DNA from: Streptomyces sp. CCM_MD2014
Lineage (GTDB): Bacteria; Actinomycetota; Actinomycetes; Streptomycetales; Streptomycetaceae
DNA length: 64,000 nt
Assembly: GCF_000772045.1 (NCBI RefSeq)
Contig: NZ_CP009754.1
Coordinates: forward strand, 4,092,001-4,156,000
Reading direction: 5' to 3'
This document shows positions 7,943-61,201 of this stretch, one piece after another; positions within the stretch are counted from its first letter, which is position 1, and each line of letters opens with the position of its first letter. The translations under genes were made by a program, and so were the position numbers. Below the pieces are notes generated by a model that saw only the letters and a program-made list of their open reading frames with translations, made no database searches and was not told where the DNA came from.

Positions 7943-9154
7943 TCAGCCCGCCAGCGTCCGCGCCAGCACCCGCGCCGCCCGCTCCACGTCCGCGAAGCCG
8001 ACGTACAGCGGGGTGAAGCCGAAGCGCAGCACGTCGGGGGCGCGGTAGTCGCCGACCACCCCGCGCTCGATCAGCCGCTTCATCACCTCGCCCGCGTCGT
8101 CACAGCGCAGCGCGACCTGGCTGCCGCGCTCGGCGTGTGCCGCCGGGGTCACGGACTCCACGCGGCCGTCAGGGACGTACGCCCCGACGCAGCGCAGGAA
8201 GAAGTCCGTCAGCGCCAGCGACTTGGCCCGCACCGCCGCCACGGAGACACCGTCCTCGTCCCACACGTCCAGCGCCGCCTCCAGGGCGAGCAGGGAGAGG
8301 ATGTCCGGCGTCCCGACCCGCCCGCGCACCGCGCCGGAGGCCGGGGCGTAGCCGGACCGCATGCCGAACGGCTCGGCGTGCGAGTTCCAGCCCGGCAGCG
8401 GGGAGTCGAAACGGGGCTGGAGGTCGCGGCGCACGTACAGGTAGGCGGGCGAGCCGGGGCCGCCGTTGAGGTACTTGTACGTACAGCCGACCGCCAGGTC
8501 GACGCCGTGCTCGTCCAGCCCGACCGGCAGCGCGCCGGCGCTGTGGCACAGGTCCCACACCGCGTACGCCCCCGCCGCGTGCACCGCTGCCGTGAGCGCG
8601 GGCAGGTCGTGCAGCCGGCCCGTGCGGTAGTCGACGTGGTTGAGGAGCACGGCCGCCGTACGGTCCCCCAGCGCCGACGGCACCTCGGCCGGGGCGACCG
8701 GACGCAGGGCGCACCCCGTCATCCGGGCCGCCGACTCGGCGATGTACCCGTCCGTGGGGAACGTGGTGGCGTCCACGAGGATCTCGTCCCGCCCGGGCCG
8801 GTCCTCCTGCGCCATGCGCACCGCGGCGACGAGCGCCTTGAAGACGTTGACGCTGGTCGAGTCCCCGACGACGACCTGCCCGGCGGCCGCGCCGACCAGC
8901 GGGGCGATCCGGTCGCCGATCCGCTCGGGCGCGGTCCACCAGCCGCTCTCCTCCCAGGACCGGATGCGCAACTCGCCCCACTGACGCCGTACGACGTCCT
9001 CCACGCGCGCGGGGACGTGCACGGGGAGGGCGCCCAGCGAGTTGCCGTCGAGGTAGGTCACGTCGTCGAGGACGAAACGCTCGCGCACCGCCGCCAGCCC
9101 GTCGGCGGCGTCCAGTTGCTCCGCCTCGCCCGCGAGGCTCTTCGGCTCAGACAT
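7943..9154 (-). CDS. kynU: Kynureninase
   Basis: A 403-aa PLP enzyme that cleaves L-kynurenine to anthranilate and alanine. Family landmarks: YLDGNSLGALP near residue 34, the region around VVGDSTSVNVFK (about 95-106) that binds the cofactor phosphate, the Asp/His of WDLCHSAGALP (about 200-210) that contacts the PLP ring, and the Schiff-base lysine K227 in TYKYLNGGPGSPA. Its ATG lies within the end of the tryptophan dioxygenase gene (8-bp overlap). The formamidase-like hydrolase follows after about 180 bp. Length and motifs are typical. Confidence 0.95.
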   Translation of the reverse strand: MSEPKSLAGEAEQLDAADGLAAVRERFVLDDVTYLDGNSLGALPVHVPARVEDVVRRQWGELRIRSWEESGWWTAPERIGDRIAPLVGAAAGQVVVGDSTSVNVFKALVAAVRMAQEDRPGRDEILVDATTFPTDGYIAESAARMTGCALRPVAPAEVPSALGDRTAAVLLNHVDYRTGRLHDLPALTAAVHAAGAYAVWDLCHSAGALPVGLDEHGVDLAVGCTYKYLNGGPGSPAYLYVRRDLQPRFDSPLPGWNSHAEPFGMRSGYAPASGAVRGRVGTPDILSLLALEAALDVWDEDGVSVAAVRAKSLALTDFFLRCVGAYVPDGRVESVTPAAHAERGSQVALRCDDAGEVMKRLIERGVVGDYRAPDVLRFGFTPLYVGFADVERAARVLARTLAG

Positions 9155-9962
9155 ACGACCGCGCCGTCCACAGCTCGGGGAACACGTTGTTGCCGGCCCG
9201 CTTCTCCAGCCAGGCCACCCCGGCGGAGCCGCCCGTGCCGGTCTTGGAGCCCATCGCGCGCCGGGTGGCGACCAGGTGGTCGTTGCGCCAGCGCCACACC
9301 AGCTCGGCGACGTCGGTGAGGGCCTCGCCGAGGCGGGCCAGCTCGCCGTTCTGGTCGCCGGAGTAGACGGCCGTCCAGGCGGCCTCCACCTCCGGCGACG
9401 CCTCGTACTTCTGGGTGACGTCGCGCTGGAGCACGGCGTCCGGGATGTCGTACCCGCGCCGGGCGAGCAGCCGGACCACCTCGTCGTACAGGCTCGGCTC
9501 GTGCAGCGCCTTCTCCAGTTCCGCGTGGACGCGCGGGGCGCCGCGGTGCGGGACGAGCATGGACGCGGACTTGTCGCCGAGCAGGAACTCCAGGCGGCGG
9601 TACATCGCCGACTGGAAGCCGGAGCCCTCGCCGAGGGCGGACCGGTAGGAGTTGAACTGGGCCGGGGTGAGCTGCCCCAGCGGGGTCCAGGAGGCGTTGA
9701 GCGCCTCCAGCTCGCGCACCGAACGCTTGAGCGCGTCGGTGGCCACCGGGATCCGGTCCTCGCGCAGAGCGCGGGCGGCGGTCTCCCATTCGTGGACGAT
9801 GACGGTGAACCACAGCTCCATGACCTGGGTCGTGACCAGGAAGACCATCTCTCCGGGATCGTCGGAGAGGGTGTGCTGGAGGTGGGTGAGCACGTCCGCC
9901 TTGACGTAGTCCTCGTACGGCGTGCTGCCCTCGAAGTCGAGATTCGGGGCGTCGTGGGACAT
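9147..9962 (-). CDS. kynA: Tryptophan 2,3-dioxygenase
   Basis: A 271-aa haem enzyme that opens the indole ring of L-tryptophan to N-formylkynurenine. It has TPYEDYVKADVL at the N-terminus, the distal-pocket His in HEWE (H57), the conserved FNSYR..LGEGSGFQS block (about 103-118), the proximal haem ligand in WRNDH (H229), and RRAMGSKTGTGGSAG (about 234-248). The ATG has an AGGAGA ribosome site. It is the first gene of the kyn operon; the 147 bp upstream contain a possible operator. Confidence 0.96.
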   Translation of the reverse strand: MSHDAPNLDFEGSTPYEDYVKADVLTHLQHTLSDDPGEMVFLVTTQVMELWFTVIVHEWETAARALREDRIPVATDALKRSVRELEALNASWTPLGQLTPAQFNSYRSALGEGSGFQSAMYRRLEFLLGDKSASMLVPHRGAPRVHAELEKALHEPSLYDEVVRLLARRGYDIPDAVLQRDVTQKYEASPEVEAAWTAVYSGDQNGELARLGEALTDVAELVWRWRNDHLVATRRAMGSKTGTGGSAGVAWLEKRAGNNVFPELWTARSYV

Positions 9963-46973: not shown

Positions 46974-47047
46974 GCGGGTGTAGTTTAATGGTAGAACATC
47001 AGCTTCCCAAGCTGAGAGCGCGAGTTCGATTCTCGTCACCCGCTCCA
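46974..47047 (+). tRNA. tRNA-Gly (anticodon CCC)
   Basis: A complete cloverleaf. Acceptor GCGGGTG pairs with CACCCGC; the D arm contains GTTTAATGGTAGAAC; the anticodon stem TCAGC/GCTGA holds the loop TTCCCAA (anticodon CCC); and the T arm contains GCGAGTTCGATTCTCGT. The 3' CCA is encoded. The integrase-bearing element starts immediately downstream, so the 3' half of this gene is the probable attachment site. Confidence 0.95.
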
Positions 47048-47052
47048 TGCGA

Positions 47053-47379: not shown

Positions 47380-47820
47380 CTATCGCGGCCAGTAACGAGG
47401 CGGCTGCTTGGCAGGGTCGACCCGATCGAACCGCTGCTTACTGCCGGGGTTCAAGCCTTTGATGTGCACGAGCTGCTGGCCGTGCGCCGTATCGAGCTCA
47501 CGGACGATCAGAGGCATCGCGGCGATCACAGCGCCCATGGCCAGCCCCAGACCGGCCATGCCCTTGTGACCGTGGCTGAACCGGATGTGGTGCATGCCGG
47601 ACTTCTTGATCGCGGACGTCTCCGACGGATCCTCCAGCTGACGCCCATCCTTGGTGAGAAAGACTTCGAAGCCTCTCTTCGCAGCATCGGGGAGGAGCGC
47701 GAGATCCTTCTTCCCCGCCCACTTGATCTCACTGACGTGGCGCACGTCGTGCCCGGGCAGCAGCCGCCGGAGCATCTCCAGCATCTGTACCGGGACGTTC
47801 TCGTCGATGAGGATTCGCAT
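47380..47820 (-). CDS. DUF5615 PIN-like protein, probable toxin
   Basis: A 146-aa protein beginning MRILIDENVPVQMLEML, the Asp/Glu strand that marks DUF5615 PIN-like nucleases. HDVRHVSEIKWAGKKDLALLPDA and FLTKDGRQLED give further acidic positions; the C-terminal 50 residues are poorly conserved. Its ATG overlaps the stop of the DUF433 gene by one base (TGATG), the usual antitoxin-first order. Such pairs are predicted toxin-antitoxin modules, which would stabilise the element; activity is untested. Confidence 0.75.
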   Translation of the reverse strand: MRILIDENVPVQMLEMLRRLLPGHDVRHVSEIKWAGKKDLALLPDAAKRGFEVFLTKDGRQLEDPSETSAIKKSGMHHIRFSHGHKGMAGLGLAMGAVIAAMPLIVRELDTAHGQQLVHIKGLNPGSKQRFDRVDPAKQPPRYWPR

Positions 47821-48461
47821 CAGGCAGCGCGCGGTCCCGGGCTGTAGCTGTCCACATACAGTGCGAAGGACACCGCATCGCGGGCGGCCTCCACTGTCAC
47901 GCCGGGGTAATACGCGGCGATCTCGTCGAGCGGGACGCCGTCCTCCACCAGCTCCGCGACGGCGTCGAACGGGACGCGAGTGCCGGTGATGACCGGCTGT
48001 CCCCCTTGCGTGTCCGGGTCCACACTGACGTGTTGCTTGGGCCGCAGAAGGTGTGGGACGACAACGCCGGCGCGGGGCGCGAACTCCTGGAGAATATCGT
48101 CCATGGTCGCGATGACCCGCTGCCCAGGATGCTTGACGAGATCAGTTGCGTGATCGTCCTTGCTATCGCCCACAAGGACGATGGAGTCGCCCTCGGCAAC
48201 CAGGGAGTAGCTGGACAGGTGCTCGAACTCACCGAACCGCTTCAGTGTGGCCAGAGCCTTGCGGATCTTCTGCAGCGACACGTCCTGCCGAAGGATGGCG
48301 AACGCGCGTAGCGCCAGGACATCCCGGAAGGAGTACAGAGCAGGCTTGGCCGCCAGCTCAGGGCAGAGAATCGGCCCATTGCCTCGGTCCTGCCGCCACG
48401 AGCGTAGTTGTCCAGTGGTGGCTCCGGAGAGAGCCGCAGCCATGCGAGTCGAGTACGCCAT
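47820..48461 (-). CDS. MerR-like HTH plus DUF433 protein, probable antitoxin
   Basis: A 213-aa protein. Residues 1-85 resemble a MerR-type HTH (MAAALSGATTGQLRSWRQDRG...; YSFRDVLALRAFAILRQDVSLQKIRKAL). Residues about 140-200 are a DUF433 domain (SVDPDTQGGQPVITGTRVPFDAVAELVEDGVPLDEIAAYYPGVT). Paired with the DUF5615 gene directly downstream. The N-terminal DNA-binding domain should let it repress the module. The 236 bp between its start and the integrase stop hold its promoter and no gene. Confidence 0.78.
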   Translation of the reverse strand: MAYSTRMAAALSGATTGQLRSWRQDRGNGPILCPELAAKPALYSFRDVLALRAFAILRQDVSLQKIRKALATLKRFGEFEHLSSYSLVAEGDSIVLVGDSKDDHATDLVKHPGQRVIATMDDILQEFAPRAGVVVPHLLRPKQHVSVDPDTQGGQPVITGTRVPFDAVAELVEDGVPLDEIAAYYPGVTVEAARDAVSFALYVDSYSPGPRAA

Positions 48462-48697: not shown

Positions 48698-49852
48698 TCA
48701 TGCCTCGCGAGCACTTCTCCGTACGCCTGGCGGTGCTTCGCCGAGCCTCTCCCTCACCTCAGCATCGATACCTCGGGCCAGCCTCCGCTGATGCTTGGCC
48801 GTCGAGTGCTGGTAGATGAGCTGGGCCCGTTCCGAGGACTGGCCGGCGCGCACCATGAGGTCCTTCAGCTTGGCGCCGGTGTCGGCGGCGAGGGTGTTAC
48901 CGGTGTGCCGGAGGTCGTAGAAGCGGAAGTTGTCCGGCAGCCCCACCTTCGTCCTGGCCTTGCGCCACTTCCGTCCGAACGTCGAGCGGCGGAACGGGGC
49001 CCCCTTCTCCCCGACGAAGAGGAGCCCGTCCGGCTCCTTCTCGGCGAACCACTGCACGTGGCGACGTAGCTCGGGCAGGAGGAAGTCGGGCAGGTACACG
49101 GTGCGCTTGCCCGCTCGGGACTTGGGATCGCCGGTGACTCTCCTGCCGTTGGTCAGCTCCGGTGACGCATGCGTGATCCGCAGGGAGCATTCGTCGAGAT
49201 CGACACTGCGGCGGCGCAGTTCGGCCAGCTCCTCGGGGCGGAGCGAGGCGAAAGCGCCGAGCAGGACCATCAGGCGCCAGCGCGGACCCATGGCGTCGGC
49301 GAGGTCGAATACCTGCTCCACGGTGGCGGTCGGCCGCTCGTCGGCTTCCTCCCTACCGGCGCCCTTGATGCGGCACGGGTTGGTCCGCAGGAGGTCGTCG
49401 TCGACCGCGGTCTGCAGGATGGCCTTCAGCAGCCGGTACGACTTAGCGACCGTCGTGGCACCCGTTGCCTTGAGCCGCTCGGCTCGCCAGGTGCGGACGG
49501 AGGGCGGTGTGATCTCGTCCAGGTCCTTGCTGCCGAAGACCGGCAGGAGGTGCAGGCGTAGCAGGCCGTCGTAGCGGTCGACCGTGGTCGGGGCCAGAAC
49601 GCGCTCCTCCATCCAGCGGAGGGCGTACTTCTCGAAGTTGATCGCGCCGGCGTCCGGGTCACGCCAGTGGTCACGCTCGATGTCGGCGCGGACCAGGTTC
49701 AGCCAGTCCTGCGCGTCGGTCTTCGTGTCGAAGGTCTCGGGGGCCTTGTGGCGCTGCCCGTCCGGGCCCAGGTAGCGGGCCTGCCATCGACCAGACGGGA
49801 GCTTGCGTACGGTGCCGAACTCCCGACGACGCGGGGGCTTGCGTGTCGGCAT
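48698..49852 (-). CDS. int: Tyrosine site-specific integrase
   Basis: A 384-aa tyrosine recombinase. N-terminal AP2-like arm-binding region (RKLPSGRWQARYLGPDGQRHKAPETFDTK), a core-binding SAM-like domain (about 70-165) and the catalytic domain. The latter has R205 in FASLRPEEL, R315 in YDLRHTGN and nucleophile Y347 in LIYQHS. Two positions that are often His are Tyr312 and Gln338 here (YDLRHT, GQSS). It should recombine at the tRNA-Gly gene. Its start overlaps the excisionase stop by one base (TGATG). Confidence 0.93.
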   Translation of the reverse strand: MPTRKPPRRREFGTVRKLPSGRWQARYLGPDGQRHKAPETFDTKTDAQDWLNLVRADIERDHWRDPDAGAINFEKYALRWMEERVLAPTTVDRYDGLLRLHLLPVFGSKDLDEITPPSVRTWRAERLKATGATTVAKSYRLLKAILQTAVDDDLLRTNPCRIKGAGREEADERPTATVEQVFDLADAMGPRWRLMVLLGAFASLRPEELAELRRRSVDLDECSLRITHASPELTNGRRVTGDPKSRAGKRTVYLPDFLLPELRRHVQWFAEKEPDGLLFVGEKGAPFRRSTFGRKWRKARTKVGLPDNFRFYDLRHTGNTLAADTGAKLKDLMVRAGQSSERAQLIYQHSTAKHQRRLARGIDAEVRERLGEAPPGVRRSAREA

Positions 49853-53061: not shown

Positions 53062-53182
53062 GCGGACCGCTCCAACCTGGAGCCCACCCCACACGGTCCC
53101 GTAACGAGCCCGCCCGGTGCCAGCCGCGCACGGCCGCCGCTACGGGTTCTCATCGTGGAACACCCACCCAGAGAAGCGACCC

Positions 53183-53812
53183 ATGCACCAACCACATCAG
53201 CACACTCCTGACGACGTGCGTCAGGGGGCCACCATCTCAGCCTCCGACGGAGCAAGTTGGTGCAAGAGCATTGCTCCCGACGGGAGCAATGCTCTTGCGT
53301 CTCCCGCCCCGAGAGCGGCGGGCCCGGAAGCGACCGAGGACGGATCGCAAACCGGCGGGGAAGAGCTACACGCGAACCACAGCATCGACTGCGCGCGCAC
53401 CTCTCCGTCACAGCCCCGCATACAGCAGCGCGAACGCCTGCGCGACGAGAACAAGCGCCTGCACCAGCCCAGCTGCCGCATGAACGACGCCGAGTACCAA
53501 CTGCTCGCCCGAGCAGCCGCCACGTGCCACATGAGCATCGCCGGCTTCCTCGCCCGCGCCGCTCTCAACGCCGCCCACGACCTCGGCCGCACCGCCGAGG
53601 ACATCGCGGGCGAGCGAGAGATGCTGCACGAGCTGTTCGCGCTGCGGCGCCACCTCGGGCAACTCGGCAACAACCTCAACCAGGTCGCCAAGGCGCTGAA
53701 CTCCGGCGCCGACGCACCGCAGGCAGAGGCGGTCCTCGCCGCCGTCCAGCGCGCCGCCAAGCGCGTCGACGCCTTCACCCAGCACCACTTGGACAATAGG
53801 AGGGCCAGGTGA
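53183..53812 (+). CDS. mobC: MobC-like mobilization accessory protein
   Basis: A 209-aa protein from the ATG at 53183 (GAGAAG upstream). The conserved part starts near residue 85 and includes CRMNDAEYQLLARAAATCHMSIAGFLARAALNAAHDL (ribbon-helix-helix-like) and the MobC signature LRRHLGQLGNNLNQVAKALNSG. It would help the relaxase at the transfer origin. The first 80 residues are unlike the family and are encoded across a long perfect inverted repeat, so translation may begin later. The stop overlaps the relaxase GTG (GTGA). Confidence 0.8.
   Translation: MHQPHQHTPDDVRQGATISASDGASWCKSIAPDGSNALASPAPRAAGPEATEDGSQTGGEELHANHSIDCARTSPSQPRIQQRERLRDENKRLHQPSCRMNDAEYQLLARAAATCHMSIAGFLARAALNAAHDLGRTAEDIAGEREMLHELFALRRHLGQLGNNLNQVAKALNSGADAPQAEAVLAAVQRAAKRVDAFTQHHLDNRRAR
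53262..53298. promoter_or_regulatory. Perfect 17-bp inverted repeat, candidate oriT or attenuator
   Basis: GCAAGAGCATTGCTCCC, a GAC loop, then the exact complement: a 37-bp cruciform or hairpin inside the 5' part of the mobC frame. Inverted repeats just upstream of mob genes are typical of oriT/nic regions bound by MobC and relaxase. As RNA it could also hide the mobC start. Confidence 0.6.
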
Positions 53813-55551
53813 TCCCCCGCATCCACGCAAGAGGCACGCGCACCATCGGCCTGCTCCACTACTTGTACGGGCCCGGCACGCACGAAGAACACACAGACCC
53901 GCACCTGGTGGGCGCCTGGGACAGCCTCGCCCCTGATCCCGGGCGCGACCTCGACGCCACGTACGGAGATCTCCAGCGGCTGCTCGACCAGCCGGTCAAC
54001 GCCCTGCCGAAGAACCGACGGCCCGCCGAGCACGTGTGGCATCTGTCGCTACGCGCCGCTCCTGAGGACCCGGTCCTGTCGGACGAGCAGTGGGCCGAGA
54101 TTGCGCGCCGAATGGTCGCCGCCACCGGCATCGCTCCCGACGGTGACGACGCCGCCTGCCGCTGGGCAGCGATTCGGCACGCCGACGACCACATTCACAT
54201 CATCGCCACCGTCGTACGAGAGGACGGCCGGCAAGCCCGCATTCGCCGGGACGGCAAGCGTTCCCAAGCGGAAGCCCGCGTGATCGAGATCGACTACGGG
54301 TTGCGCCGCCTCGCCACCGGCGATGGCACCGCAGCCCGTCGTCCGACCAGCGCAGAACGGCACAAGGCCCAGCGGGAAGGCCGGGAGCGCACGGCGCGGG
54401 AGGAACTTCGTGAGTCCGTGCGCCGGGCAGTGGCCGGTGCTGCCTCGACGGACGAGTTCTTCGACCGCCTGGCCGCCGCCGGTCTGCTGATCCGCAAGCG
54501 TCTCGCGCCTTCCGGCGACCTCCTCGGGTACAAGGTCGCCCTCCCTGATGACCGGAACAAGGACGGCGAGCCGGTCTTCTACTCAGGCTCCAAGCTGGCG
54601 CCCGACCTGTCCCTGCCCCGTGTCCGCGAACGCTGGAGCCGGCCCTCGGAGACGCCCACCGCCATCGACGGTTCGTGGCCGGATCAGCCTGCACTGCCGC
54701 CCGTGACAGGCCCCGCGTTCGCGCGGCGGCGGGCCGCGGCTGCCACGTGGCAGGCCCTGCTGGTGATCGACCACGGCGACGACGGCACCGCAGCAGCCCA
54801 GATCGCCGCGACCGGAGAGGTCCTGGACGCGCTGGCCAAGACCTCCGCCGCCCACACCCGGGCTGAACTGCGCGAGGCAGCCTCCGCGTTCGAGCGCGCG
54901 AGCCGCTCCCACGTGAAGGCGGTACGCGGGCACGACCGGGGCCTGCGACAAGCCGCCCGTGATCTCGTCCACAGCGGGCCGGTCCTGGGCCGGGGCGAAG
55001 ACGGCGCCTGCACGGCCATGCTCATCGACATGGCCTTCTTCGTCGTGACCGCCGCGGCAAAGTGGCACGCCAGGAAGCATCACACCCAGCAGGCCACAGC
55101 AGCCCAGCAAGCCGCCGAGCACCTCCGCGCCGCCTACCAGGCCGCCTCAGTCCAGCCCATGACCGCACTGAGCCAGCGAGGCCGGCGGCTGACTCAACGT
55201 GTTCGGCAACAGCAGGCGAACCTGCTCCACCAAGTGCTGCCGGAGCTGGCCGACCAGATCGAGGCTGAGGCCGGTTGGCCCGCCTTGGCCGCCACACTGG
55301 ACGATGCCCGGAGGGCCGGCCATGACCCGGCCGCCCTGCTGACCGAAGCCACGGCACGGCGCGAACTACGCTCCGCCGGATCCATGAGCGATGTCCTCGT
55401 CTGGCGCCTGCGCCGCAGCGCTCACCTGCCCGCACTACCCGACGACCGAAACGCCACGGCCCTCCGAGCCAACCGGCACACCTCGCACTCGGCGCCCACC
55501 ACGCAGTCGGCGCCCGGCCCGACAGGGAACGATCCCCGCCGTGGCCGCTGA
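53809..55551 (+). CDS. Relaxase (MobA/VirD2-like)
   Basis: A 580-aa nicking enzyme for conjugative transfer. The N-terminal domain has the three-His metal motif (AAIRHADDHIHIIATVVRED), and IHARGTRTIGLLHYLYGPG at the start offers the likely catalytic Tyr region. Residues about 190-580 are helical with Arg/Gln-rich segments and no helicase motifs. The GTG start overlaps the mobC stop. It is convergent with the methyltransferase gene, only 14 bp apart. With no transfer ATPase nearby the element is mobilizable rather than self-transmissible. Confidence 0.88.
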   Translation: MIPRIHARGTRTIGLLHYLYGPGTHEEHTDPHLVGAWDSLAPDPGRDLDATYGDLQRLLDQPVNALPKNRRPAEHVWHLSLRAAPEDPVLSDEQWAEIARRMVAATGIAPDGDDAACRWAAIRHADDHIHIIATVVREDGRQARIRRDGKRSQAEARVIEIDYGLRRLATGDGTAARRPTSAERHKAQREGRERTAREELRESVRRAVAGAASTDEFFDRLAAAGLLIRKRLAPSGDLLGYKVALPDDRNKDGEPVFYSGSKLAPDLSLPRVRERWSRPSETPTAIDGSWPDQPALPPVTGPAFARRRAAAATWQALLVIDHGDDGTAAAQIAATGEVLDALAKTSAAHTRAELREAASAFERASRSHVKAVRGHDRGLRQAARDLVHSGPVLGRGEDGACTAMLIDMAFFVVTAAAKWHARKHHTQQATAAQQAAEHLRAAYQAASVQPMTALSQRGRRLTQRVRQQQANLLHQVLPELADQIEAEAGWPALAATLDDARRAGHDPAALLTEATARRELRSAGSMSDVLVWRLRRSAHLPALPDDRNATALRANRHTSHSAPTTQSAPGPTGNDPRRGR

Positions 55552-55565
55552 CGACCGTGTCCTGA

Positions 55566-56312
55566 TCATCTGTACCGGGCCGCGGTGTACGCGGTAGGCC
55601 CGTGCAAGGTGCCTGCTCCGATCTCGTCGCTGATCTGGAGGACGTCGAAGCCGGCGAGCGTCGCGTACAGCTCCAGCTCACGCGGCCCGAGAACACGCCG
55701 ACGGATCACGTCCCGTGTTTCTTCACCTGAGTTGAACACCCAGTGCCGGCGCATGGTGTTCATCTGGGTCCGCAGGTCCCACTCGTAGGTGATGGTCACG
55801 TGGGCTGTGTCCGATCCGGTCTCGACCTCTGCTTCCTGCGGCTCATCACGCTCGATCGGGGCTACGGAACTGCAGAGTACAAGGAGCGTCCCGGGACGGG
55901 CGTGCGCTGCGAAGGTCCGGAAGACCGCCTGGATGTCCTGGTTGTCGTGCACGTAGGAGAGGGAGTTTCCCAGGCAGGTCAGCACGTCAGCGGTGTGGTC
56001 GAGTCGGATGGTGCGCATGTCGCCGAGGCGGATGTCGAGGCCGGGCCGTGTGCGGCGGGCGTAGTCGACCAGGCCGGGCTGGAACTCGACACCGATGCAG
56101 TCGAAGTGGCGGGCCAGCAGCTCCAGGTCTCTCCCGGTTCCGCAGCCCAGATCCAGCAGAGTGCGGGCGTCCGGGCGGTGCCGATGGACGAGCGCCCGAC
56201 AGCTGCTCGCGCTGGTGCTGTCGGACTGCACTCTGTCGTACAGGGCGGGGTCTCGGTAGAAGAGGTTGGAGGCTGCCAGGTGTCTGGGTTCGGCGATGTC
56301 CAGGCCGCTCAT
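55566..56312 (-). CDS. SAM-dependent methyltransferase
   Basis: A 248-aa class I methyltransferase. Motif I LLDLGCGTGRDLELLARHF, the acidic end of strand 2 in CIGVEFQPGLVDYARR, motif LGDMRTIRLDHTADVLTCLGNSLSYV and motif III-like RPGTLLVLCSS are clear. The C-terminal half has EWDLRTQMNTMRRHWVF, as in small-molecule methyltransferases of antibiotic clusters. The ATG overlaps the AsnB-like stop (ATGA). The likely substrate is the processed peptide of this operon; that is inference. Confidence 0.85.
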   Translation of the reverse strand: MSGLDIAEPRHLAASNLFYRDPALYDRVQSDSTSASSCRALVHRHRPDARTLLDLGCGTGRDLELLARHFDCIGVEFQPGLVDYARRTRPGLDIRLGDMRTIRLDHTADVLTCLGNSLSYVHDNQDIQAVFRTFAAHARPGTLLVLCSSVAPIERDEPQEAEVETGSDTAHVTITYEWDLRTQMNTMRRHWVFNSGEETRDVIRRRVLGPRELELYATLAGFDVLQISDEIGAGTLHGPTAYTAARYR

Positions 56313-57781
56313 GCGAGGCTCCGCAGTCCGACTTCCAGGGCGAGTGTGTCGCACAGCAGGTCGGGCACCGCGGGAGTCCGCTCGGCGTGGTCGCGGGCCC
56401 GGCTGAGGGCGTCGGCATCAACGTAGCCGAGATCGATCAGCAGGGAATCGGTCAGCATCTCGTCCAGGAGAGGGAGCCCGTAAGTGCGCAGTCCCGACTC
56501 CATGACCGCGAGGAAGTTCTCCGGCTCGGTCGGAGCCGCAACGGACTCGGGCAGACCCGTCCGCCGAAGTCGGTCGCGGAACATCTTCTTGTCGCGTTTG
56601 TACTCGTACGGCAGTTGCTCCATGAAGCGGATCATCCGGGGGTGGACGAGCGGGGCCACCGGCCAGATACCGAGTCTCACGTACGCCGGGTTGTGCAGGC
56701 CGAATGCCATGAGCGTCGGCACAGGCATGACCGGGATGGGAGCGAGGTTCTCGTTCACCTGGGCCAGCGCCGCGGTGGCCTTGTCGCCGAGCCATGGCAC
56801 CGGCTCCATCGGCGGGAGTCCGGCTTCCGTACGCGAGTGGTGGGCGTTGACCTCGTCCCCGCCGCCACCTGTGAAGATCAGCTCGCAGCCGTGTGCGGCC
56901 ACGTGCCCGCGCATGATGTCGAACGCTTCCTGGTAGAAGGCGCCTGCCGGATCGTGCGGCCGTCTGCGTTCCCTCACGCCTCCAGGCACGAAGGGCGGGT
57001 GCTGCATCGCCGGCACGGCGGTGTCGCGCAATCCCAGGTGGTCCACCAGGGAGCGGCGTCGGTCTCGCTGGAGCTGGCCGATCCGGCCGCCCATGAGTAG
57101 CCCGAAGGTGTGCACGGAGCCGAATCCGGCCGCTACGGCGGACAGTGCCACGTTGGCCGAGTCCGCTCCGCCTGACACCTCGACGCCGACGCGGCCGGCC
57201 GTCGATCGCCACTCGGCCACGGCCTCGGTGAGCAGTGCGTCGAACGCGGTCACGGGGTCCACTCCGCTACGGAGGCTGCGGGGTTCCAGGACGTGCTGGG
57301 CGGGCTCGGGGTAGAGGATGGAGAGCCCTGCCGGCGTGAAGACCGCGGTAGCGCGTTCGGTGAGTCGGTACACGCCGTCGAAGAGGGTGTCGGTGCTGTA
57401 GCGGTGTTGGCGGCTCAAGGTGCGGGCGACCGCTCGTGGATTGAGCTGGTCAGGTCGCAGGTGCGGCCGGAGGTCGACGATGTCCCACGCCCCGAAGATC
57501 TCGTCGCCGACAGCTGTGAGGTACAGCGGGACGGTACCCAGCATTCCCGCCGAGACCTGGATCTCGTCGGGCCGGACGAGCAGCGACGTGTAGTCGGCTT
57601 CACCGTCTCTGTCTTCTCGCACCAGCACACAGACGCTCGATCCGTCGCCTGGTATGAGGTCCGCGACCAGGACGGTTGCGTGAGCGGGCCGGATCCAGCT
57701 CTCCCCCTTGACCCAGCGGTCTGTGTCCCATCGCCAGCCGGCGTCCCGGGTGTCTGCCAGTCGCACACGAAACGAGAGCAC
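56309..57781 (-). CDS. Asparagine-synthetase/lasso-cyclase-like ATP enzyme
   Basis: A 490-aa protein from a GTG with GGAGGGG upstream. Residues 1-170 have a degenerate Ntn-type domain without the catalytic Cys2 of glutaminases (FRVRLADTRDAGWRW; VSAGMLGTVPLYLTAVGDE). Residues 180-490 are the ATP-pyrophosphatase synthetase domain with PP-loop VSGGADSAN (about 202-210) and FTGGGGDEVNAHH (about 303-315). Without glutaminase activity such enzymes adenylate a carboxylate and form an amide or macrolactam, as lasso cyclases do. It follows a 38-aa peptide gene and a hairpin, and overlaps a methyltransferase gene. Confidence 0.88.
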   Translation of the reverse strand: MLSFRVRLADTRDAGWRWDTDRWVKGESWIRPAHATVLVADLIPGDGSSVCVLVREDRDGEADYTSLLVRPDEIQVSAGMLGTVPLYLTAVGDEIFGAWDIVDLRPHLRPDQLNPRAVARTLSRQHRYSTDTLFDGVYRLTERATAVFTPAGLSILYPEPAQHVLEPRSLRSGVDPVTAFDALLTEAVAEWRSTAGRVGVEVSGGADSANVALSAVAAGFGSVHTFGLLMGGRIGQLQRDRRRSLVDHLGLRDTAVPAMQHPPFVPGGVRERRRPHDPAGAFYQEAFDIMRGHVAAHGCELIFTGGGGDEVNAHHSRTEAGLPPMEPVPWLGDKATAALAQVNENLAPIPVMPVPTLMAFGLHNPAYVRLGIWPVAPLVHPRMIRFMEQLPYEYKRDKKMFRDRLRRTGLPESVAAPTEPENFLAVMESGLRTYGLPLLDEMLTDSLLIDLGYVDADALSRARDHAERTPAVPDLLCDTLALEVGLRSLA

Positions 57782-57802
57782 TCCGCTCCCCTCCTCTACG
57801 GA

Positions 57803-57837
57803 GCGGCGGAGCAGGACGCCAGGCCCTGCTCCGCCGC
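57803..57837 (-). terminator. Hairpin between the peptide gene and the AsnB-like gene
   Basis: GCGGCGGAGCAGG and its exact complement (13-bp stem, nine-base loop) lie 13 bp past the peptide stop and end 21 bp before the synthetase GTG. Partial terminators at this place are common in peptide clusters and give more precursor than enzyme. Confidence 0.75.
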
Positions 57838-57850
57838 GTTCACCGGCCGG

Positions 57851-57967
57851 TCAGCTGCAGTGGTCGCCGTTGTTGTCGCCACCACCGGGCATCTTGTCGA
57901 GCAGCGCCGCGTCCATGCTGGGGACGCCGGTGACCAGGTCTCCCGTGAAGAGCTCGTCGATGATCAT
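57851..57967 (-). CDS. 38-aa precursor-like peptide (candidate RiPP substrate)
   Basis: A short gene with a very strong ribosome site (GGAGGAAGG seven bases before the ATG). The N-terminal two thirds, starting MIIDELFTGDLVTGVPSMD, looks like an acidic, amphipathic leader. The last 12 residues, PGGGDNNGDHCS, are Gly/Asn/Asp-rich with one His and one Cys. It lies directly before an AsnB-like synthetase and a methyltransferase. If the core began at the first Gly, an Asp would sit at position 8, the ring position in lasso peptides. However, no lasso protease or RRE gene is seen and there is no Thr at -2. The class is undetermined. Confidence 0.7.
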   Translation of the reverse strand: MIIDELFTGDLVTGVPSMDAALLDKMPGGGDNNGDHCS

Positions 57968-58081
57968 GACTGTTCCTTCCTCCTGCGGAGTGGGTGGACG
58001 GGCACCGCGAGCTGCGGAACCCGGACCCGTCCCTGCCGCCGGCGTTCACGGCGAACTGGACGGGAGCTCGTTGGGTGGGGG

Positions 58082-58166
58082 CCCGCTCTGGCCGAAGGGA
58101 GAGAGCGGCTGAGCCCTTCCCCGGTGGGGACCGGGTCTTCCCGAGGGCTCGCTCGGCCAGAGCGGG
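58082..58166. promoter_or_regulatory. Long-range 14-bp inverted repeat upstream of the precursor gene
   Basis: CCCGCTCTGGCCGA and TCGGCCAGAGCGGG are exact complements separated by 57 bp, in the 233-bp gap between the 41-aa membrane protein and the precursor. It may be a leader RNA stem or a double operator; the rest of the gap has no gene. Confidence 0.6.
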
Positions 58167-58200
58167 AGTCGGTAGGTCCGGAGCGGACCGGTGGTCTCTC

Positions 58201-58326
58201 TCAGTCGGGGGCGAGGTGCCACAGAGCCCAGGCGACCGGGGCAGTGGAGACGATGATCAGGGCCGACAGCAGCCACTGCCGCCAGCCATAGGGGCGACCT
58301 CGCCTGTTGCGCCGCCGGCTCACCAT
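58201..58326 (-). CDS. 41-aa single-helix membrane peptide
   Basis: Starts MVSRRRNRRGRPYGWRQW, then one hydrophobic helix (LLSALIIVSTAPVAWALW), then HLAPD. The positive-inside rule places the N-terminus in the cytoplasm. Its ATG overlaps the stop of the preceding 30-aa peptide by seven bases. No family recognised. It may help export the peptide product or give immunity. Confidence 0.6.
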   Translation of the reverse strand: MVSRRRNRRGRPYGWRQWLLSALIIVSTAPVAWALWHLAPD

Positions 58327-58412
58327 CCCAGGGACACCGCCACCACGATCGATCCCCCGAGCACCATGACGCACGCGATGTACATGACCTGAGCCGTGAC
58401 CTGGCCTTTCAC
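58320..58412 (-). CDS. 30-aa single-helix membrane peptide
   Basis: From a GTG (VKGQVTAQVMYIACVMVLGG) with one hydrophobic helix ending SIVVAVSLGW. The GTG overlaps the stop of the 49-aa gene (GTGA), and its stop overlaps the 41-aa gene start. AAGGA lies 11 bases upstream, a weak spacing. The overlaps on both sides are the main support. Confidence 0.5.
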   Translation of the reverse strand: MKGQVTAQVMYIACVMVLGGSIVVAVSLGW

Positions 58413-58558
58413 TGCGCGCCCTGGTCCTTGCCACGCTGTTGCCCCACGGTCGGCGCGAGGCCAGGTCGGCCGACGAAGACGCGTCGTGCTCGTTCCTGGT
58501 CGGGCAGGGTGGCGCCGATCCGGCACACCGGCGGCTCGGCCGGGGTTTGGTCAGCCAT
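58409..58558 (-). CDS. 49-aa small protein
   Basis: From an ATG with GGAGGAAGG nine bases upstream; starts MADQTPAEPPVCRIGATLPD and ends in a polar QQRGKDQGAQ. It has one Cys and many Arg and Gln, with no hydrophobic helix. Its ATG overlaps the stop of the DUF6415-like gene by 8 bp and its stop overlaps the next GTG. Unrecognised. Confidence 0.6.
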   Translation of the reverse strand: MADQTPAEPPVCRIGATLPDQERARRVFVGRPGLAPTVGQQRGKDQGAQ

Positions 58559-58922
58559 CGTTCTGGTCCTTCCTCCGGGTCGCGCGGTAGACGTCGGCGA
58601 AGCGTCTGGTCAGTGAGCCGAGATCCCGCATGTACTGGTAGGCATGGAAGTGAGGGGACTGCTCCGTCGGCCGGCGCGTCAGGTCGAGGACCCGGTAGCC
58701 CTCCCGGAACAGCGCCTGGACGGCCGGGTTCTCGTCGAAGCCGAGCTCCTCGGCCATCAGCACTCTCAGGTGGCTGACCAGGTCTCGGGTCGTGGCGTCG
58801 ATCACCGGGCGTTCGGGCATCATCAGGCGAATGGCCAGCGCGGTTTCCACGGTCTCGTCGACCGCCTCCAGGACGATCGACACTCCAGCCACCTCGAACG
58901 ACGTGACGCTTCCTGCTGCCAT
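58551..58922 (-). CDS. DUF6415-like protein, first gene of the peptide operon
   Basis: A 123-aa helical protein from an ATG with GAGAAGGGG upstream. The blocks TTRDLVSHLRVLMAEELG and FHAYQYMRDLGSLTRRFADVYRA resemble DUF6415, a Streptomyces family annotated near natural-product genes; the match is from memory of the pattern and is moderate. It is the first gene of the leftward operon, opposite the XRE-TPR regulator. Function is unknown. Confidence 0.6.
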   Translation of the reverse strand: MAAGSVTSFEVAGVSIVLEAVDETVETALAIRLMMPERPVIDATTRDLVSHLRVLMAEELGFDENPAVQALFREGYRVLDLTRRPTEQSPHFHAYQYMRDLGSLTRRFADVYRATRRKDQNDG

Positions 58923-58949
58923 TGCCCGCACCCCTTCTCCGGTCTCCAC

Positions 58950-58969
58950 CGTTGTCGTGCCTGACAACG
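58950..58969. promoter_or_regulatory. Palindrome in the divergent promoter of the peptide operon
   Basis: CGTTGTC-GTGCCT-GACAACG, perfect 7-bp arms, 28 bp upstream of the DUF6415-like start and 120 bp upstream of the XRE-TPR gene. It is a good candidate operator for that regulator. Confidence 0.65.
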
Positions 58970-59089
58970 TCCAGAAAAGCGGCTCGTGTTGGCGCAGACC
59001 ACGGCATCCGCGGGGCAGTCCTGAGACACTTCTGGGACAGCCCGGTGCCGTCGGGTTAGACGCGGGTTGGTGCGTGGAAAGGGGGCGGC

Positions 59090-60346
59090 ATGGGGCTTGC
59101 TGAGCGGCGCAGGGCGCTGGGCTACAGTCAGGAAGAGCTCGCGCACGCCCTCGGCGTGGACCGACGGACCGTCGGCCGCTGGGAAGGCCGCTCCACCACG
59201 CCGCAGCCGCCGCTGAGACCACGGCTGGCCGAGCTGCTCCACCTCGACCTTGACGAACTCGACGCCTTGGTGGGACAGCCACGAGCAGCCCACCCGGAGT
59301 CGGCAGGGCCGCCGCCTCGCGACCACCACGGCTCAGGGGACCTCGACGACATGATCCGACGCCAGTTCCTGCGCGCCATCACCGTCACCAGTGCCCTGGT
59401 GGCCCTGCCCCCCGACGAGGGCGCAGCCCTCGCGGAGGGCGCGCTGCGCGGGATGTCCGACGACTTCCTGCGCATGAACGGACACCTGTGGCAGGTCTAC
59501 CAACTCGCCCGCGCCAAGCGTTCCGTCTACCCGGTCGTCCGCGACCAGCTCACCGCCCTGAACGAGACCCTCGACGGACGGCCCGAGGTCGAAGCACAGG
59601 CCCTGTGCGGCGCGGCCGGCGACCTCTTCCAGCTCGCAGGAGAACTGGCCTTCGACGGCAACCGCTACACCGACGCCGCCGCCTCCTACACGCTCGCCGC
59701 CTCTGCCAGCCAGGAGGCGAAGTCCTACGACCTGTGGGCGTGTGCCCTCGTCCGCCACGCCTACGTCGATCTGTACGAACGCCGGTACGCCGACGCGGTC
59801 GGCACGCTGTCGGCCGCCGAGAAGGTGGCAAGGCGCGGGGACGGTTCCCTGTCCACCCGCTACTGGGTCGCTGCCGTCCAAGCCGAGGCGTACGCCGGCC
59901 TCGGCGACCTCTCCGCCTGCGAACGCGCCTTGGACGAGGCGGAGAAGGTGACCGGCCTGAGCGGGGCGGCCCACAACGGTGGCTGGCTGCGTTTCGACGG
60001 CTCCCGCCTCGCAGAAGAGCGTGGCGCGCGCTACCTCCAGCTTGGACGCCTCGACCTCGCTGAGAAGGCACTCAGCAGCGCGCTCAGCCAGGACATCCTC
60101 GCTTCCGGCCAGTCCTTGCGCCGACGCGGTGCGGTACTGACCGACCTCGCGGCCATCGGCGCCCGGCGCCAGGACCCCGACCAAGTACTCGCCTACGGCG
60201 GGGAGGCGCTGCGACTCGCCCACACGACCTCCTCGGGTTACGTCGCCCATAAACTTCAGGGGCTACGAACCGACCTCGGCCCGCTCTCCCGCGACGCTCG
60301 TGTGGCGGAGCTGGGAGCCGAGATCGACGCACTGTGCACGACGTGA
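59090..60346 (+). CDS. XRE-family regulator with TPR-like C-terminus
   Basis: A 418-aa protein. Residues 1-65 are an XRE HTH (MGLAERRRALGYSQEELAHALGVDRRTVGRWEGR); a Pro/Ala/Gly linker follows and then helical TPR-like repeats (about 100-415; YTDAAASYTLAASASQEAKSYDLWACALVRHAYVDLYERRYADAVGTL...). This is the layout of Streptomyces regulators that sense peptides or small molecules through the TPR part. Divergent from the peptide operon with a palindrome between them, so it is the likely pathway regulator. Confidence 0.85.
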   Translation: MGLAERRRALGYSQEELAHALGVDRRTVGRWEGRSTTPQPPLRPRLAELLHLDLDELDALVGQPRAAHPESAGPPPRDHHGSGDLDDMIRRQFLRAITVTSALVALPPDEGAALAEGALRGMSDDFLRMNGHLWQVYQLARAKRSVYPVVRDQLTALNETLDGRPEVEAQALCGAAGDLFQLAGELAFDGNRYTDAAASYTLAASASQEAKSYDLWACALVRHAYVDLYERRYADAVGTLSAAEKVARRGDGSLSTRYWVAAVQAEAYAGLGDLSACERALDEAEKVTGLSGAAHNGGWLRFDGSRLAEERGARYLQLGRLDLAEKALSSALSQDILASGQSLRRRGAVLTDLAAIGARRQDPDQVLAYGGEALRLAHTTSSGYVAHKLQGLRTDLGPLSRDARVAELGAEIDALCTT

Positions 60347-60360
60347 CGAGAGGGGAAGGC

Positions 60361-60726
60361 ATGTCGCAGTCCGAGGGCGCCCGACTGTTCCGCGAGGCTT
60401 GGATCACCGGGGTGCGCAAGCACTTCCCTGGCGAGCCCAAGCCCGGCTACGTCACCCCCTGGGAAGAGACTCCCGAGTGGGAGCGCCAGGCCGCCGGTGC
60501 CGTCCACGACCAGGTGCGCCAGTTCCTCGACCTCAGCGACCGCCACGCCTCCCGCCTCACCCGCGAGCAGAAGAGCCGCTTTGTCGCCACCTGCTGGACC
60601 GCGCAGATGTACAAGCACTTCGAGAACCCGAAGCCGGGCTATGTCGCCGACTGGGCTGCCCTGCCCGACTGGCAGAAAGAGACCGACGCGGACATCTTCG
60701 AGGCGATCGAGGACGCTCTGAAGTAG
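60361..60726 (+). CDS. Small protein with an internal duplication
   Basis: A 121-aa soluble protein 14 bp after the XRE-TPR gene, with a GAGAGGGGAAGG site. Two halves carry the same pattern: KHFPGEPKPGYVTPWEETPEW near residue 20 and KHFENPKPGYVADWAALPDW near residue 87. The shared core is KHF-x(2,3)-PKPGYV-x2-W-x3-P-x-W. The duplication suggests two equal binding sites or a pseudo-dimer. Family unrecognised. It is probably co-transcribed with the regulator. Confidence 0.7.
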   Translation: MSQSEGARLFREAWITGVRKHFPGEPKPGYVTPWEETPEWERQAAGAVHDQVRQFLDLSDRHASRLTREQKSRFVATCWTAQMYKHFENPKPGYVADWAALPDWQKETDADIFEAIEDALK

Positions 60727-60829: not shown

Positions 60830-61201
60830 TCAGCTCCTGTGCGACCGGCGCGGCGAGGGGGCCGGACAGCGGGCGGATCCTGTTGAGCATGCGCGCGGCT
60901 CCGAACTGTTCTGCGGGGTTTCTGGTTGTCCCTTTTCGGGACGGGCGTCATGTCCCGACTCGGGACAAACCTCTTGTCCCGACTCGGGACGGGCTTCCTC
61001 CCCCACGACCGCCGAGGCTTTGACTGTCACCATCGCGGCCGGCCCCAAAGCCGCCGCAACACCGTCGTAGCCGTAAACAGTGTGCTCGCCGTCCTGACGG
61101 TCGGCGACGACGCCTTCATCGAGCAGCATCCCGGAGATCCCGTCACCTGCTGGCCTCGCCGTCCTCGTCACGGTCCTGGCCGCGTCCGTGCTCCTGATCA
61201 T
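60830..61201 (-). CDS. Doubtful frame, possible winged-helix remnant
   Basis: A 123-codon frame from an ATG at 61201. Residues about 22-65 (GISGMLLDEGVVADRQDGEH, then TVYGYDGVAAALG) have normal codon bias and could be the end of a winged helix. The following part contains three eight-residue repeats of the type ARPESGQE encoded by 24-bp DNA repeats, and the tail is basic and unconserved. No ribosome site is seen and no upstream domain. It may be a decayed gene at the edge of the mobile element. Confidence 0.25.
   Translation of the reverse strand: MIRSTDAARTVTRTARPAGDGISGMLLDEGVVADRQDGEHTVYGYDGVAAALGPAAMVTVKASAVVGEEARPESGQEVCPESGHDARPEKGQPETPQNSSEPRACSTGSARCPAPSPRRSHRS
60927..60998. repeat. 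Three 24-bp repeats with internal palindromes
   Basis: Units begin at 60927, 60951 and 60975. The second and third contain the palindrome GTCCCGACTCGGGAC, and the first a degenerate GTCCCTTTTCGGGAC. The even 24-bp spacing resembles a protein-binding array. It lies in the 738-bp gap between the duplicated-motif protein and the SpoIIE phosphatase, near the presumed right edge of the element. Confidence 0.7.

Follow-up and report, generated by a model that had tools for sequence, protein, structure and literature searches.

The 64,000-nucleotide stretch of the Streptomyces sp. CCM_MD2014 genome analyzed here (contig NZ_CP009754.1, positions 4,092,001 to 4,156,000; hereafter the window, in whose positions all coordinates are given) carries an operon with genes for a 38-aa peptide (P0001), an AsnB-like synthetase (P0002) and a methyltransferase (P0003). 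We consider it likely, from comparisons of sequences, that this is a ribosomal peptide operon of an undescribed class, in which P0002 would link the side chains of Lys25 and Asp31 of the peptide through an isopeptide bond, without leader cleavage, and P0003 would tailor the GDHCS tail. The main argument is a lysine-aspartate spacing, K-x5-D, that recurs in otherwise dissimilar peptides encoded ahead of related synthetases in Actinobacteria and Proteobacteria. The features of the module are as follows.

57851..57967, minus strand: precursor peptide gene P0001, 38 aa (translation), kept in 48 loci (20 different DNAs)
57896..57967, minus strand: leader part, residues 1-24, with a DELFTG motif; putative recognition region, 11 variable positions in the genus
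57875..57895, minus strand: K25-MPGGG-D31, predicted Lys-Asp ring; K-x5-D in the collected precursors
57854..57868, minus strand: GDHCS tail, residues 34-38, seen only in methyltransferase-bearing clades
56309..57781, minus strand: AsnB-like synthetase P0002, without Cys2; putative Lys-Asp macrolactam synthetase (Pfam PF00733, alignments, tree)
57158..57175, minus strand: SGGADS ATP-pyrophosphatase loop of P0002, residues 203-208, invariant in ten rows of alignment A1
55566..56312, minus strand: class I S-adenosylmethionine (SAM)-dependent methyltransferase P0003 (Pfam), co-occurring with GD[HY]CS

ATP-driven amide or macrolactam formation, as proposed in an earlier prediction made from this DNA alone (the original prediction), appears to be the likeliest chemistry. 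P0001, which is conserved together with the synthetase, would serve as its substrate. P0002 would recognize the leader (DELFTG...) and adenylate the Asp31 side-chain carboxylate with ATP, as its intact SGGADS and GGGGDE motifs suggest. The side-chain amine of Lys25 would then attack, giving the seven-residue isopeptide ring K-MPGGG-D that the K-x5-D spacing predicts, and P0003 would then methylate the GDHCS tail. A divergent regulator of the NsdA family probably controls the module and might sense its product. Because the amine would be that of the Lys side chain, no leader protease would be needed before ring closure, and since such a bond requires no new N terminus, the missing lasso B protease would be explained.

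A dissimilar set of precursors with one shared spacing

Synthetase relatives were drawn from Streptomyces genomes, plasmids and further genomes, and those at 24-37% identity to P0002 mostly have a small open reading frame (ORF) ahead of them. Peptides of the type HEYKKxSGSSD...YDT precede the synthetases in several actinobacterial families, and Streptomyces plasmids encode ...YRDKPAGTED... and ...DDKAAETSD... peptides, with an ATP-binding cassette protein downstream. In Rhizobium, a 52-aa peptide is encoded ahead of the synthetase, next to an N-acyl-homoserine lactone (AHL) synthase gene; other Rhizobium and Bradyrhizobium plasmids encode 31-aa peptides, and further precursor-like ORFs occur in Mesorhizobium, Bradyrhizobium and Xanthomonas. 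What the small ORFs of Actinobacteria, Rhizobium, Bradyrhizobium, Mesorhizobium and Xanthomonas have in common is K-x5-D; otherwise they share little sequence.

Lys at position i and Asp at i+6 are found in all 25 collected precursors, against 17 of 25 for the next residue pair and at most 12 of 25 for any other K-D spacing up to 14. Among 13 dissimilar representatives the motif is present in every one; in 200 shuffles, no combination of 260 residue pairs with 15 spacings did better than 10 of 13. A rule-based choice of ORF (the closest one upstream that has a ribosome site and a length of 25-75 aa) picked out an ORF in 27 of the 30 loci; K-x5-D is present in 26 of these ORFs and in none of the six others that passed the rule. 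The idea had been noted before six more loci were fetched, and all six carry the motif, in three distinct new sequences, the rest being near-copies. The residue after the Lys can be M, A, S, P, K, E, C, T, I, G, R, V or F (Pro in three of the 25 precursors), and the residue before it varies too. This variation on both sides makes a conserved alpha-amine or protease site unlikely, and the tolerance of Pro at +1 together with the variable -1 residue makes the Lys side-chain amine the natural nucleophile.

Lasso-type systems served as controls. None of 41 relatives passed the cut-off of the lasso-cyclase model, which makes this model a strict one; for that reason the control cyclases were taken from beside matches to the lasso protease family PF13471. 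Nine such loci were used, a cyclase was recognized in five, and the four lasso-type precursors chosen there by visual inspection (L152 and L159 with one each, L156 with two) have the lasso pattern T-x-G and lack K-x5-D.

The original prediction had laid weight on the Gly/Asn/Asp/His/Cys tail of the peptide. That emphasis has to be moved, since the distant relatives share instead the K-x5-D formed here by Lys25 and Asp31.

Conservation of the peptide, synthetase and methyltransferase

The 48 loci with the peptide include several that are one place fetched twice. Residues 24-38 (DKMPGGGDNNGDHCS) are common to all 20 distinct peptide DNAs except that of L015, and the leader varies at eleven positions. 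A conserved leader and a variable core had been expected of homologues; within the genus the pattern is the reverse, the leader varying more and residues 24-38 hardly at all. An exact degenerate pattern of the C-terminal motif matches in 17 of 295 genomes of the genus, and the reversed control pattern in none of the 295. Judged by this conservation, the 38-aa gene is real and more than a chance reading frame. The LF motif of the leader is visible by eye in actinobacterial relatives, and in clade 3, from another family of the order, the peptides read ...EKAPGDADGEDKGDHCSVQA and ...EKSPGDGDGEDKGDYCSVQR.

The proposal that the 38-aa precursor, a glutaminase-less AsnB-like synthetase and the methyltransferase form one module is borne out: all 28 rows of the GDHCS family whose synthetase is full-length, representing 23 distinct DNAs, have the three together, and the trio persists, in another family, down to 39% synthetase identity. 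A small precursor beside a modifying enzyme, the two conserved together, is thus seen here, as in ribosomally synthesized and post-translationally modified peptides (RiPPs). Homologous operons without the peptide gene, which had been named in advance as counter-evidence, do exist, and each of them also has a damaged or truncated synthetase: L016 has a synthetase ORF of 457 aa with a 405-residue match, and L017 and L092 retain the C-terminal part only; no peptide was seen in these three loci.

P0003 carries SAM methyltransferase domains (Pfam). Among 35 further loci, a methyltransferase occurs in four (L047, L048, L082 and L092), all with GDHCS-type synthetases. Three of them have a GD[HY]CS peptide and L092 is a clade-2-type remnant, so that the methyltransferase probably acts on the GD[HY]CS tail, which was seen only in the three clades having this enzyme. 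At the blastp cut-off used, only the synthetase and the methyltransferase matched across all three GDHCS clades. In 13 loci from the other branch of actinobacterial relatives the synthetase has a GNAT acetyltransferase gene nearby; four rhizobial loci have a different GNAT.

The synthetase family

P0002 belongs to Asn_synthase (Pfam PF00733, 34.5 bits against a cut-off of 21). It begins with V/M-L-S and thus has no Cys2, in line with the predicted lack of the glutaminase cysteine; its SGGADS and GGGGDE motifs are intact. The family as a whole retains [ST][GA]G-x-DS, GxGGD[EQ] and a [KR]-x-x-x-[RH] block. Since its scores are all below cut-off for the curated lasso cyclase (NF033535, 27.3 bits against 525), albusnodin/ikarugamycin (NF033561, 18.3 against 300) and asparagine-synthase (28 against 267) models, P0002 falls in none of these families as curated. 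In the tree, 16 family members lie on one side of a 100/100 branch, with five lasso-type cyclases and AsnB on the other; P0002, L018 and L048 group at 98/98, and AsnB and L160 have long branches. The AsnB of the host genome itself carries MCG and GADELFAGY.

Searches for more remote relatives gave little. A profile search of the PDB with alignment A1 found no match at E 0.001, and no relative turned up in viral contigs (six short P0002 patterns) or phage records. A phylum-wide profile search found the family in 2 of 396 genomes and, because only about three candidates were scored per genome, says little on its spread.

Points weighing against a Lys-Asp ring

Several observations weigh against the reading of P0002 as a Lys-Asp ligase acting on P0001. 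In L015 the peptide is one Asn shorter and the synthetase frame stops at 268 codons, and at L009/L060 (one place fetched twice) the usual peptide start is lost and the synthetase is still full-length. Some of the collected precursor ORFs were chosen by eye. The rule-based choice gave no candidate in three of the 30 loci, and in its one miss, L086, the motif sits in an ORF that the rule rejected. No K-x5-D ORF lies ahead of the partial synthetase of L093, the stretch ahead of the L090 synthetase is masked, and in the lasso control loci K-x5-D occurs by chance in 2 of the 19 other listed small ORFs. That the best hits among curated models score far below cut-off belongs here as well, as does the AlphaFold model from ten close relatives, which at a predicted local distance difference test score of 37 gave no usable structure. 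No exporter or protease by which a product might be released is common to the three GDHCS clades, and by its model the NsdA family does not include the regulators of L050, L086 or L089. Finally, the Lys and the Asp might be kept for recognition and not for bonding.

Alternative explanations

Lasso peptides are made from a short leader-core precursor by an AsnB-like cyclase of the McjC type, with an Asp acceptor. The present system resembles them in its AsnB-family synthetase, its Asp acceptor, its short leader-core precursor and a conceivable ring of about seven residues. An unlinked protease could cut at or near Lys25, after which P0002 would join the new alpha-amine to Asp31, leaving a ring of six or seven residues and a short tail. 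A cut before Lys would indeed make the Asp residue 7, and the P0002 family is glutaminase-less with GxGGD[EQ] (GxGGDE is present in four of the five lasso-type cyclases compared). We nevertheless regard this alternative as improbable. PF13471 has no match in the window's genome. Of 28 genomes or records, 8 contain one, always on a contig other than that of the cluster or at a distance of over 600 kb (the cluster contig of G452 being only 4 kb), so that the absence of the lasso protease, pointed out in the original prediction, holds near all clusters checked. Moreover, the -1 and +1 residues vary and +1 is Pro in three precursors, none of the 25 has the Thr two residues before the Lys at the main site that is typical of lasso precursors, and the Lys itself would have no need to be invariant. 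The synthetases also form a separate clade. As neither a nearby protease nor a shared exporter is found, we agree with the earlier view that this is not a standard lasso cluster. A PqqD-like RiPP recognition element protein was not seen among the window ORFs in general scans, which included no search with its own model.

It is slightly less probable still that P0002 amidates an Asp or the C terminus with free ammonia, like asparagine synthetase (AS)-like RiPP enzymes. The closest case is PesC of the nitrilobacillins, likewise an AS-like enzyme beside a ribosomal peptide, which according to the accessible part of PMC13060819 turns the peptide C terminus into a nitrile and accepts ammonia. That part of the article also states that PesC takes its nitrogen from glutamine and needs prior hydroxylation by a multinuclear nonheme iron-dependent oxidative enzyme, and in these respects, in its action on the C terminus and in its motifs it differs from the P0002 family. 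None of 16 family rows has Cys2, the glutaminase residue of asparagine synthetases and AS-like amidases. Glu363 and Tyr368 are described in the same portion of PMC13060819 as conserved in five AS-like enzymes, Y368F abolishing activity; by their spacing they would correspond to the E and Y of DELFxGY. This Tyr, five residues past the Glu of DE, is present in the host AsnB and missing from the 16 family rows except L100 (which has Gln for Glu), as it is from the four lasso-type cyclases in which the motif was found. Its absence favors lactam formation over amidation. In addition, the peptides differ in their last residue, which in the GDHCS clades can be S, K, A or R, and amidation would leave the invariant Lys unexplained.

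An intermolecular reaction, in which P0002 would couple Asp31 to a small molecule or to another protein, with the peptide as carrier or tag and the Lys as a recognition residue, strikes us as similarly hard to credit. The near invariance of residues 24-38 in the genus is reminiscent of cofactor or carrier peptides, and the lack of a shared exporter would fit; however, the fixed K-D spacing in dissimilar peptides is best explained by a Lys-Asp bond. That the 38-aa ORF encodes no substrate but a regulatory peptide or an antitoxin, as the adjoining XRE-TPR regulator and the small membrane ORFs upstream could suggest, is very improbable, since Proteobacteria also have K-x5-D ORFs ahead of the synthetase with no such regulator annotated in the stretches fetched, and peptide loss accompanies synthetase damage in L016, L017 and L092.

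A side-chain Lys-Asp macrolactam, which we prefer to these alternatives, can also be set beside other known systems. Beta-lactam synthetase and carbapenam synthetase are AsnB relatives that likewise make an intramolecular amide; their substrates, in contrast, are small molecules. Streptide-type RiPPs are encoded beside Rgg regulators in Streptococcus and resemble our case as Lys-containing cyclic peptides next to an XRE-TPR regulator, but the bond, formed by a radical SAM enzyme between Lys and Trp, is a carbon bond and not an amide. Graspetides, RiPPs with omega-ester or omega-amide bonds, use ATP-grasp ligases, unlike the AsnB-type enzyme found here, and no ATP-grasp gene is present among the window ORFs scanned. 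The available part of PMC13097080 describes graspetides as side-chain macrolactams, Lys included, to which the ring predicted from K-x5-D would be similar.

The regulator and a possible role in signaling

The XRE-TPR regulator of the window passes the NsdA-family model NF053720 (156.6 bits against 75), and a regulator of this family lies beside six of the nine clusters tested (the window, L018, L047, L020, L049 and L083). That of L048 also passes the model, with 261 bits. NsdA-family matches number 13 in the host genome of 8.27 Mb and 42 in a relative of 5.1 Mb, so that, judged from match density, a chance neighborhood in most clades appears unlikely. A signaling role of the product is possible. 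A broader conjecture, which we offer tentatively and think rather unlikely as a whole, is that AsnB-type Lys-Asp (i, i+6) macrolactams of Actinobacteria and Proteobacteria are peptide signals sensed by adjoining NsdA-family XRE-TPR regulators, with the same chemistry beside AHL synthase genes in rhizobia.

Some neighboring genes deserve mention. On Rhizobium plasmids (L102, L103, L105 and L128), the gene for a 52-aa peptide ending in KGGKPGDMDKLDV and the AsnB-like gene lie directly past an AHL synthase gene, a position that suggests quorum-controlled peptide production in legume symbionts. In L123-L126, on Rhizobium and Bradyrhizobium plasmids, genes for the peptide, the AsnB-like enzyme, a phosphotransferase, a GNAT protein (unannotated in L126) and a GntR regulator form one block; the kinase and the acetyltransferase could possibly serve in tailoring or self-protection. 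Upstream of the L086 cluster (7998-9437, minus strand) lies the gene of a TPR protein with a weak match (33 bits against a cut-off of 1125) to HaaT, which is the TPR protein of cyclophane RiPPs.

Operon layout and mobile element

The remaining genes and features of the region are these.

57968..58200, minus strand: 233-nt gap with a predicted hairpin, upstream of the peptide gene
58201..58326, minus strand: 41-aa membrane-peptide-like ORF, accessory
58320..58412, minus strand: 30-aa membrane-peptide-like ORF, accessory (ends read by eye)
58409..58558, minus strand: 49-aa ORF, accessory
58551..58922, minus strand: DUF6415-like protein, accessory; clade 1 only
59090..60346, plus strand: divergent XRE-TPR regulator, NsdA family (157 bits)
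60334..60726, plus strand: 130-aa protein with two similar halves, accessory
47002..47048, plus strand: attachment site, the 47-bp 3' end of tRNA-Gly(ccc); identical repeat at window-equivalent 74236-74282
48698..49852, minus strand: tyrosine integrase (Pfam PF00589)
53117..53812, plus strand: NikA/MobC-like mobilization protein
53809..55551, plus strand: relaxase (MobA/VirD2-like)

All the genes named in the original prediction are where it placed them. Its picture of leftward genes chained by overlaps of 4-8 bp applies to four junctions: DUF6415-like/49 aa (8 bp, 58551-58558), 49 aa/30 aa (4 bp, 58409-58412), 30 aa/41 aa (7 bp, 58320-58326) and synthetase/methyltransferase (4 bp, 56309-56312). 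It does not extend to the 38-aa gene, which lies 233 nt past the 41-aa gene and 69 nt ahead of the synthetase gene. The gap at 57968-58200 contains, on the minus strand, a stable predicted hairpin with a 14-bp perfect stem (CCCGCTCTGGCCGA/TCGGCCAGAGCGGG; z -2.4) and has no Rfam match. The DUF6415 match is below the Pfam cut-off (20.4 against 27.5), the 130-aa protein matches no family above cut-off among the curated models and Pfam, and the 30-aa ORF was compared across relatives with a wrong-frame query. Three similar palindromes of the type TGTCCCGACTCGGGACA, candidates for an operator, an iteron or a boundary element, stand in a row just past the 130-aa gene (60915-61000). A defense system was considered and rejected: the sole PADLOC matches were that of a methyltransferase domain to mad2 and a weak one to RmrA.

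The operon was thought to be carried on a mobilizable element, and this is confirmed by a tyrosine integrase, a NikA/MobC-like protein, a relaxase and a 47-bp direct repeat at tRNA-Gly, the features of an integrative mobilizable element. The second repeat lies beyond the window, at genome position C1:4166236 (window coordinate 74236), giving an element of about 27 kb between the tRNA-Gly repeats. The clade-2 cluster L061 adjoins a relaxase 44% identical to that of the window, and one clade-2 copy is on a plasmid typed as conjugative. Further along the same element (L151, about 67.6-73.0 kb, beyond the window), apparent arsenite-efflux-like (ACR3-type) and flavin monooxygenase-like genes were recognized by eye. 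Beside the tRNA-Gly site, a DUF433/MerR-like and PIN-like (DUF5615) pair (47380-48461, minus strand) resembles a toxin-antitoxin pair.

Novelty and implications

An AsnB-type enzyme that makes a side-chain Lys-Asp isopeptide was not found in the accessible portions of the open-licence PMC literature (including PMC13060819, PMC13097080, PMC13352647 and PMC7794033), and a search of the available text of PMC7794033, the decRiPPter paper, gave no mention of asparagine. No characterized member was found for the enzyme clade of P0002. About 300 RiPP-associated AS-like candidates are still uncharacterized according to the accessible part of PMC13060819, and these may include the P0002 family. Macrolactam enzymes of the AsnB type are already known, as are RiPPs and Lys-Asp isopeptides; their combination would possibly be a new RiPP class if the bond were shown.

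If the proposed ring closure is true, a single AsnB-type ligase would suffice to make Lys-Asp rings, with the leader left uncut, and genome mining would gain a rule, namely K-x5-D beside a Cys-less AsnB. The reading makes a residue-level prediction of ring closure. Should the signaling conjecture also be true, these peptides could give a type of ligand to the orphan NsdA family of regulators of antibiotic producers.

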